Assembly (NCBI RefSeq): GCF_000317085.1 | Contig: NC_019702.1 | Span: 2,386,394 to 2,450,393 of the forward strand | Length of the DNA: 64,000 nucleotides | Source: Synechococcus sp. PCC 7502 | GTDB taxonomy: Bacteria; Cyanobacteriota; Cyanobacteriia; Pseudanabaenales; Pseudanabaenaceae | Direction: 5' to 3' | Shown: in pieces, positions 2,297 to 39,573 of the stretch | Numbering within the stretch: the stretch's first letter is position 1 | Layout of the letters: every line of letters starts with the position of its first letter | Made by a program: the position numbers and the translations under genes | Notes under the pieces: model-generated | Database searches by the model: none | Told to the model about the DNA's origin: nothing | The model's input: the letters and a program-made list of their open reading frames with translations, nothing else

Positions 2297-4933
2297 ATGC
2301 GTAACCGTTTCAATATTTCCAAGTATGCAATTAAGTATTCATGGCTAACTTTAATTGTGTGGTTAATTATTAGTATTGCTGGTGTTTTTGCCTTCTCTTC
2401 CCTGAAATATGCACTATTCCCCGATGTAACTTTTCCAGTAGTTGTGGTCAATGCTTCGGCTAGAACAACATCCCAAACTGATACTGAAGCTCGTATTACT
2501 AATGCCTTAGAGCAAAAATTACAGGGGATAGAAGGAGTAAGTTCAATGCGTTCTTCCACCTATAGCGATCGCTCAGTAATTAGCTTAGGCTTTGATGTCG
2601 GTACAAATTTAGAGGCTTCTACGCAAAAGGTAGAGGAGATTGTCAAACAGGTAAAGCTTCCAGATAATGCCACATTTCAAGTAATTCCTATAAATCTGAA
2701 TGAAACGGCAGCAGTAAGCTATACCTTTACCTATAAAGCTTCTCCCAGTCTTGATTACGCTAAATTACAGGATTTAACCACACTGGCAAAGACCAGAATC
2801 TTACCCAAACTTCAGGCTCTTGAAGGAGTATTAAAAGTATCTCTCCTTGGTGCGCCCACCCCTCTACCCACCCAAATTAGTCCCCAAGCTTTTGGCGAGT
2901 TTATTAAAAATACGTTTACGAGTACCAAAATCAGAATTAATGGCAAAGATGCTTTGGCTATGGAGATCATTAAGCGTAGCAGTGCCAACACTTTGGAAGT
3001 AGTTGATTTAGCAGAAACCGCCGTTGAAAAATTGCGATCGCAGTTCCCAGATTTAGAAATTTCCCTTGCCTCTACCCAAGCTGAATACATTAAAGAAGCT
3101 ACCCATGCCACCATTGATTCTTTGGTTTTGGCGGTGATTTTATCGGTAGTTGTGATCTATCCTTTCTTAAAGGACTGGAAAGCTACGGTAATTTCGGCGT
3201 TGGCAATTCCCATGTCTTTGCTTGGCACCTTTGTGGTCATGGCTATTATGGGCTTTAATCTGGAGACTATTACTTTACTGGCATTGGCTTTGGTAATTGG
3301 GATTGTAGTTGATGATGCGATCGTCGATGTGGAAAATATTAGTCGCCACTTAGATCAAGGGGAATCTCCTTTTAGAGCCGCTATTACCGCCACTAGAGAA
3401 ATTGGTTTAACCGTAACCGCAGCGACTTTGACCATTGCCGCCGTGTTTCTGCCCGTAGGTTTAATGCAGGGTACCTTGGGACAGTTTTTTAAGCCCTTTG
3501 GTATTACCGTATCCGCAGCAGTTTTAATTTCCTTAGCAGTTGCCCGCACTCTTTCCCCTTTATTAGCAGCCTATTGGCTTAAGGGCAAACCTTGGGAACC
3601 ACAGGATCATAATCACCGTGATGGCATGAATGCAGCCTATGCCAAAATTTTAATTTGGTCACTGAATCATCGTTGGCTTGTGGTTGGGTTGGCGATTTTA
3701 ACATTCATTATCGGTTTAGCCTTACTGCCCTATGTGCCGAAAGCCTTTATTCCCAAACTAGATCGGGGTGAATTTAATATTACCTATACTGGCTCTATTC
3801 CCAAGGTTGCAGCCCCGCCCGTGGAATTATTTCGCCCTAGCCCCAATGTGAATCCTGCTAGTTTACTTTTAGCTGCTAGTCCTTTAGTTCAATCAGGTGA
3901 TGTTGCTAAACAATTAGAGGCATCTATCCTAAAGTCTCCTGAAGTTGAAACCGTATTTACCACCATTGGTAACGGACAAGGACAACCAAACAGGGGAAAT
4001 TTATATGTGAAATTAAGAAGCGATCGCACTCTGACAACCTCGGCAATGCAGGATCAATTGCGGGCAACTTTGCCAAGAATTCAAGATGTAACTACCAGTA
4101 TTGAGGATATTCAGTTTGTGGATACAGGTGGAGAAAAACCTTTGCAAATTTCCTTGGTGGGAGAAAACTTAGAGAATTTACGCCGAACTGCGATCGCCAT
4201 CAAAGCTAAAATCCAAAATCAAATAGGGCTGGAGGATATTAAAATCACTGGTGATAGTGAAGTTGATCATCTTAACGGTAAACGAGTTACTTACATTACC
4301 GCTAATCTAGGTAAAAATATTGCCCTTGGCACCGCAACCGATCAGGTCGTAGCGATCGCTAAACCACTTTTACCAGCAGGAGTAATCATCGATCTAGGTG
4401 GAGATTCAGGGCGATTAAATGCTATCCTCAACAGCTTTGCAGGTACTTTAAGCTTATCTGTAACCTGTATTGCTTTTGTTTTACTTTGCCTATTTAGAAA
4501 TTTAGTTGATCCTCTATTGGTAGTTTTTTCTTTACCTTTAGCATTGGTGGGGGCAATTCTATCTTTGCTGATCACAAATAGTGGTTTTGGTATGATTGCA
4601 GTGATTGGCATTATTCTGTTAATTGGAATTGCTAATAAAAATGCGATTTTAATCGTAGATTACATTAATCAAAGTCGAGAGCAGGGATTAACCCTAAAGG
4701 CAGCGATCCTTGCCGCTTGTCCAGTCCGATTACGTCCAATATTAATGACCACTGCTTCAACGGTTTTGGGAATGTTACCCATTGCCCTAGGAATTGGTGC
4801 GGGTTCAGAATTACGGGCTCCCATGGCGATCGCTGTGATTGGTGGATTAATTACTTCTACTGTTCTTAGCCTAATTTTTGTACCTGTGGTTTATAGTCTG
4901 TTGGATGTATTTAGAAAAAAAGTGGAAAAATAA
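2297..4933 (+). CDS. RND (HAE1/AcrB-type) efflux transporter, compact form
   Basis: This is a proton-driven inner-membrane efflux pump subunit. At 878 aa it is well below the roughly 1030-1050 aa usual for AcrB-type proteins. TM1 lies near residues 12-33. The proton-relay helix carries [14 protein letters not shown] with the paired Asp, and the second half repeats the fold with [13 protein letters not shown] including the relay Lys. The loss of length falls in the two periplasmic loops (about residues 34-270 and 480-700), so part of the porter or docking region is reduced. No adaptor gene is adjacent; the nearest candidate is the lipoprotein adaptor at 10521. Substrate is unknown. Confidence 0.88.
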
Positions 4934-38335: not shown

Positions 38336-39139
38336 ATGAGAACAGTATTATCTGCCAAATTTATGTCTCCATCTGCATCTATATCTAAAAAAATCGCATA
38401 CTTTGATTGTGCCGTAGGAATTGCTGGTGATATGTGTCTTGGGGCATTAGTCAGTGCGGGGGTACCTTTAGAGTATTTTACAGAAATAATTGATCGGTTG
38501 GGAATTGGCGATGAAGTTAAATTAAGGTCGGAGCTTGTGAATCGGGGCGGACAGGAAGCAGTTAAAGTTCATGTAGATATTCGCCACCACGGACATCACC
38601 ATCGCCATTTACCTGAAATTGAAACCATTATTAAATCAGCCCAACTAGAGCCATTAATCGAAAAAAATAGTTTGGAGATATTCCAAAATTTAGCGATCGC
38701 CGAGGGTAAAGTTCACGGGATTCCACCCGAAAAAGTCCATTTTCATGAGGTTGGGGCATTAGATGCGATCGCTGATATTGTCTGTACCTGTGCAGGATTA
38801 GCATGGTTAGGAGTAGAACAAGTATTCTGTTCAGCACTGCCTACGGGAGGAGGGTTTGTTACCTGTGAGCATGGGCAGTTACCAGTTCCAGTTCCAGCAG
38901 TTTTAAAACTATGGGAAATGTTCAAAGTGCCTGTATTTAGTAATGGCATTGATCGGGAATTAGTTACACCCACTGGGGCAGCGATCGCTGTAAGTTTGAG
39001 TGCTCAGTTTGGAACGATTCCAGCTATGAGTATTAGCAAAATTGGTTTAGGTGCTGGTACCAGAGAGTTGGCTATACCCAATATTTTTAGACTGTGGATT
39101 GGCGAATCTACAGATCAAGATAAAAAAAAACAGAACTGA
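38336..39139 (+). CDS. larC: nickel-pincer cofactor synthesis protein LarC, N-terminal part (frame 1)
   Basis: LarC inserts nickel into the pyridinium-thiocarboxylate precursor to make the nickel-pincer nucleotide used by lactate racemase and related enzymes. The family start is [21 protein letters not shown]. The His-rich loop ([13 protein letters not shown]) likely handles Ni. [17 protein letters not shown] and [21 protein letters not shown] are conserved. The frame ends at 39139 just after a run of nine A, while the rest of LarC continues in the -1 frame. Alternative start: the ATG at 38363. It lies 45 bases after sigF. Confidence 0.9.
39122..39130 (+). promoter_or_regulatory. A9 slippery site joining the two larC frames (-1 frameshift)
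   Basis: Nine A follow a T. In the larC1 frame they read AAA AAA AAA CAG, so the heptamer A AAA AAA is in the correct phase for a -1 ribosomal shift. After a shift the next codons are ACA GAA CTG ATT, which lead straight into conserved LarC sequence. Polymerase slippage to ten A would give the same product. Confidence 0.7.
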
Positions 39140-39573
39140 TTGGGGTTTTAGAAACTCAGGTTGATGACTTAAGCAGTCAGGTGATTGGCTACGTGATGGA
39201 TTTATTACTGAGTCATGGTGCTTTGGATGTGTTTACCCAAGCGATCGGGATGAAAAAATCTCGTCCTGCGGTTTTAATTACAGTAATTTGTCCCTGCGAT
39301 CGCCTAGAAATTTGTGAGGATATTTTATTTCGAGAAACCACAACCTTAGGAATCAGAAGAAGATTACAAGAACGTAGGATTATCCCTAGAGAGATATTTA
39401 GCATCGAGACCAAGCTAGGAACAGCGAGGGTTAAAATTGCAGATCGGAATAAATTTAAAACTATCCAACCTGAATACGAAGATTGTGTACAGTTAGCAAA
39501 GATACACCAATTACCTTTATCTGAAGTGCAGGCAATTGTTCTCCAAATAGCCCAATCTATATTACAAGACTAA
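39124..39573 (+). CDS. larC: LarC C-terminal part (frame -1)
   Basis: This frame holds the C-terminal domain of Lar[21 protein letters not shown], then [20 protein letters not shown] and TTLGIRRR. The conserved residues begin upstream of any ATG or GTG start (the first GTG is at 39181), which shows the two frames belong to one protein. A full LarC made by a -1 shift would be about 410 aa, the normal family length. In Lactiplantibacillus plantarum, larC1 and larC2 are joined by programmed frameshifting in the same way. Confidence 0.88.

Follow-up and report, generated by a model that had tools for sequence, protein, structure and literature searches.

How does a cyanobacterium translate the C-terminal half of a metal-insertion enzyme when that half lies in a different reading frame from the start of its gene? 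The larC locus of Synechococcus sp. PCC 7502 raises this question within the 64-kb stretch of DNA that we analysed (the window). The original prediction was that two larC frames are joined at a slippery run of nine A (A9) in the right phase for -1 frameshifting, with a sequencing error or natural indel as the alternative.

A larC gene in two overlapping frames

The forward-strand frame 0 starts at an ATG and encodes LarC1, a protein of 267 aa (38336-39139) that matches TIGR00299 with 214 bits and covers PF01969 profile positions 1-244. It ends in the residues D, K, K, K, Q, and N followed by a TGA (39137-39139), at which the short product terminates. The three lysines are the AAA AAA AAA codons of the A9 run (39122-39130), and the junction codons, GAT AAA AAA AAA CAG AAC TGA, are identical in a genome of the same genus (G001). 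Six nucleotides before the frame 0 stop ends the heptamer A_AAA_AAA (39124-39130), which has the X_XXY_YYZ form of -1 frameshift sites, in the phase of frame 0 and within the overlap of the two frames. The -1 frame is open from 39124 to 39573, so that both frames are open together for only 16 nt (39124-39139), around the A9. Because a TAA of the -1 frame (39121-39123, gaTAAa) lies just 5' of the heptamer, a shift is confined to 39124-39136.

Conserved LarC sequence resumes in the -1 frame directly after the run, and the LarC2 domain extends from 39130 to 39573 (ACA GAA CTG ... TAA). As originally claimed, this happens ahead of any usable start codon: the first ATG, GTG, or TTG of the frame is a GTG at 39181, inside the conserved domain, and no start codon precedes the conserved LETQ motif. 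We found no candidate in the window for a LarC2 with its own start, and the domain is reachable there only via a frame change. The product of a -1 shift, previously put at about 410 aa, is computed at 412 aa. It scores 213 bits against TIGR00299 (LarC1, cut-off 90) and 138 bits against NF052512 (LarC2, cut-off 50), and aligns over residues 18-408 with full-length LarC (PDB: 12bi, E-value 2e-88), an alignment that places the KKK of the A run between the LarC1 and LarC2 domains. The window LarC2 also matches the C-domain of LarC that was solved alone (PDB: 6bwo). With both domain models above their curated cut-offs, the protein is LarC, the nickel-pincer cofactor nickel insertion protein, and by homology it is predicted to carry out the last, nickel-insertion step of nickel-pincer nucleotide synthesis. 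The same genome encodes LarB (288 bits, C3:1585698) and LarE (311 bits, C3:1164938), both unlinked to larC, and no LarA (PF09861) was found in it. Nickel insertion by Synechocystis LarC has been shown in E. coli; LarA is absent from most cyanobacteria, in which the cofactor is still made (PMC11796402).

The A9 is the sole run of at least nine A (or T) within the window. In-phase A_AAA_AAA occurs five times in the roughly 16,000 codons of the window's long ORFs, so the heptamer by itself proves little and conservation carries the case. One long ORF that resembles a membrane transporter (RND-type in appearance, 2297-4933) has an in-phase A7 seven codons 5' of its stop; a -1 extension after this A7 yielded nothing meaningful.

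Conservation of the split in the Pseudanabaenaceae

We compared 38 genomes of the family, the window's included, 37 of which have larC; the family also includes the Pseudanabaena records lw0831, SR411, FACHB-1998, UWO311, and "Roaring Creek". The gene is split in 34 of the 37 larC-bearing species, in the same inter-domain linker. In-phase A_AAA_AAA is present in 31 of these 34 (27 runs of A9 and four of A10), and two more (G007 and G012) have A_AAA_AAG (A6G) at the junction. The last, from a fragmented assembly (G011), has an A8 run and is the only one in which LarC2 is not in the -1 frame. Slippery site and downstream frame are thus kept in 33 of 34. None of the A9 and A10 runs is interrupted by a G, though AAG makes up 35% of lysine codons outside the junction, and the linker sequence that flanks the run diverges freely on both sides. 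The overlap of the open frames is at most 28 nt in 25 of 42 cases and always surrounds the A run. As in the window, many relatives lack a conventional start ahead of LarC2.

Both halves of the gene are under purifying selection. Over eleven pairs, dN/dS is 0.05-0.14 for the N-terminal part and 0.06-0.20 for the C-terminal part, and between the window and its sister genome G001 it is 0.13 and 0.08, respectively. The low values of the C-terminal part indicate that selection maintains a domain to which only a change of frame gives access.

These observations bear on whether larC was simply broken by a homopolymer indel or consists of two separately started genes. Most cyanobacteria do have an uninterrupted larC, as does genus g2, and the three unsplit family members, all of one genus, have no A run. 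A lone indel is exemplified by G068 (L071, G068:C73), whose larC breaks in the linker, where it has neither an A run nor a heptamer; we rejected it as a programmed case, and it is probably a plain indel or an assembly error. Against this explanation, split, phase, and motif are shared across genera of the family, selection acts on both halves, and neither a start codon nor an initiation site precedes LarC2 in the window, which makes a broken gene or a gene pair highly improbable. The original prediction had counted unsplit relatives without an A run as evidence against programming. Such relatives do exist, namely a single genus within the family and almost every cyanobacterium outside it, but the conservation of the split state from genus to genus means that they date the event and do not refute it.

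A sequencing or assembly error is hardly credible. Homopolymers are error-prone, and the A8 of G011 may be one such error, but the site is exactly the same in the window and in G001, which was assembled separately, despite a dS of 0.85-1.46 between them, and the same frame relation recurs in more than 40 genomes, several of them in few contigs. The indel alternative, whether artefactual or natural, is therefore contradicted by the conserved split, phase, and motif together with purifying selection. A programmed frame change, ribosomal or otherwise, is well supported by these sequence comparisons, and the proposal of -1 frameshifting in a cyanobacterium gains support from relatives that keep an in-phase run and an intact downstream frame.

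Split larC in other lineages and in the literature

In a survey of the phylum that covered 386 genomes and 80 named loci, larC outside the family is almost always encoded in a single frame. A second cyanobacterial clade, from another family, comprises G190, G602, and seven species of genus g177, all with split larC and LarC2 in the -1 frame; all nine have an A9, in a codon phase different from that of the window's family. Nested within this clade is a single-frame larC (L190, G615:C111), in which GTG ACA AAA AAA AAC AGT reads into LarC2 and which, judged from its sequence, looks like a reversion by natural fusion. In Clostridia, six larC genes are split at the same LarC1/LarC2 boundary, with runs of A7 to A10. 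The split larC genes cannot all go back to one origin, as the LarC tree needs at least five changes (gains or losses) between the split and unsplit states. One unsplit cyanobacterial larC (L115) has an in-phase A_AAA_AAG just 5' of LarC2, a possible precursor state.

In Lactiplantibacillus plantarum, larC1/larC2 reportedly changes frame at the junction of LarC1 and LarC2. The break in the window is at this same boundary, and NCBIfam has separate LarC1 and LarC2 models; the window's genome differs in having LarB and LarE without LarA, and the likeness concerns the position of the break. Antonov et al. 2013 list the DUF111 cluster (PF01969, now LarC) among four newly found families with programmed frameshifting, and give up to 39% frameshifting for DUF111 cassettes in an E. 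coli reporter (PMC3711429). That cluster, which came out of a screen for conserved frame transitions with A-rich heptamers, resembles the window's larC in protein family and in its two annotated pieces. The main text contains no cyanobacterial case, downstream hairpin, or comparative survey of larC, nor does it name the species or slippery sites behind the DUF111 constructs that were assayed (PMC3711429). The chlD gene of magnesium chelatase is also a metal-insertion enzyme gene in which -1 frameshifting on an A run gives a short and a fused product, but the protein is unrelated to LarC and its two products are separate chelatase subunits (PMC3711429, PMC9227772).

We found no literature on frameshifting of larC in cyanobacteria, in a search hampered by the use of LARC as a cancer abbreviation. 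Frameshifting in the LarC family is already known, and the clade-wide cyanobacterial cases, the repeated origin, and the covarying hairpins described below appear to be new within the searchable literature. The split also matters for annotation: gene callers may log such a larC as a pseudogene or as two proteins, and, with LarC2 lacking a start of its own, the nickel-insertion step could go unannotated across a whole cyanobacterial family.

The proposed slipping step and the hairpins of relatives

We consider it probable that larC is expressed by programmed -1 ribosomal frameshifting, which would yield both LarC1 (~267 aa) and full LarC (412 aa). Ribosomes that stay in frame 0 would terminate two codons past the A run and release LarC1, which lacks the C-terminal domain. 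A fraction of them would instead move back by one nucleotide on A_AAA_AAA, where both Lys-tRNAs would pair anew with AAA, and then translate the -1 frame into the 412-aa LarC, which would include the CTP-dependent C-terminal half of the nickel-insertion enzyme. We infer slippage on the ribosome rather than on RNA polymerase, along with its efficiency and the use of both products; the ribosomal step is suggested by the phase of the heptamer, by the A6G and A7 cases, and by hairpins that lie downstream of the run.

The main rival is programmed transcriptional slippage, in which RNA polymerase adds or drops A residues on the A9, such that some mRNAs encode full LarC in a single frame and the rest LarC1; the protein outcome is nearly alike and the step differs. 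It draws on the presence of A9 or A10 nearly everywhere, across three codon phases and across clades that became split independently, and on the report that nine A/T suffice for efficient slippage by bacterial RNA polymerase (PMC5009743), a length that the window's A9 reaches. Run length is almost always nine even in phases where seven or eight A would suffice for the ribosome, which speaks for the polymerase as well. However, the long run is not kept by all, given the A6G of G007 and G012 and the A7 of two Clostridia, and covarying hairpins lie 3' of the run. Since this downstream RNA is not yet made when the polymerase slips, the hairpins fit a ribosomal stimulator better. We consider transcriptional slippage a rather unlikely explanation, and both kinds of slippage may contribute.

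Many Pseudanabaena carry such hairpins, with stems of 17-24 bp, directly 3' of the A run. They were detected by folding the 70 nt past the A run at junctions of genus g4, with a threshold of z below -6. This value was reached at 11 of 25 junctions versus none of 273 further segments taken from these larC genes. Seven genomes share a 24-bp stem that starts no more than about 2 nt after the run, in which nine of 24 pairs are changed on both sides with pairing kept. In five other genomes, a 17-bp stem starts 9 nt past the run, and eight of its 17 pairs are changed two-sidedly and still paired. The covariation scores of both groups were reached in none of 500 shuffles, a significance that is overstated because the sequences are related; the signal was lost when the partner was slid by one column. 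One hairpin, searched for in ten genomes, was present only at larC, which rules it out as a dispersed repeat, and inspection by eye showed no T tract 3' of most stems, which makes terminators unlikely. No Rfam family was found at the site. In the window itself, the RNA downstream of the A run has no unusual structure above chance (z 0.1 to 0.5), and a comparable hairpin is also missing in several relatives; the hairpin would accordingly be an addition in some lines and no requirement.

The dnaX gene of E. coli combines A_AAA_AAG with a downstream hairpin. Its likeness to larC lies in the A-rich -1 heptamer (A_AAA_AAG itself in G007 and G012), the short and long products, and the hairpin of many larC relatives. 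Unlike in dnaX, the larC frameshift would yield the long product, and the window is without a hairpin; no Shine-Dalgarno-like stimulator was noticed by eye 5' of the larC site. In Thermus thermophilus dnaX, transcriptional slippage on an A9 gives two products, of which the long one is in frame 0. Both genes thus share an A9 and two products, whereas the long product of larC depends on a net change of -1, and the run is only A6G in some larC relatives.

A further, tentative reading, doubtful as a whole, takes several proposals jointly: that free LarC1 plays a separate role, that slippage evolved repeatedly and independently at the LarC1/LarC2 boundary and leaves LarC1 in excess over full LarC, that Pseudanabaena lines tune the LarC1:LarC ratio by fast-evolving hairpins, and that frameshift efficiency sets cofactor synthesis in cyanobacteria without LarA. 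A conserved LarC1:LarC ratio would be a clue to the control of the LarA-less cofactor pathway in cyanobacteria (see PMC11796402 for the pathway). Across the family and its counterparts, this one site exists in dozens of natural versions that span three codon phases, runs from A6G to A10, and the presence or absence of a hairpin, and these are useful to tell ribosomal from transcriptional slippage. In one genome, a second, stand-alone LarC2-like domain (L069, G036:C17:476624-477040) lies 7 kb from the split larC; its homology sets in at the 3' arm of the linker hairpin, and it has the look of a partial duplication.
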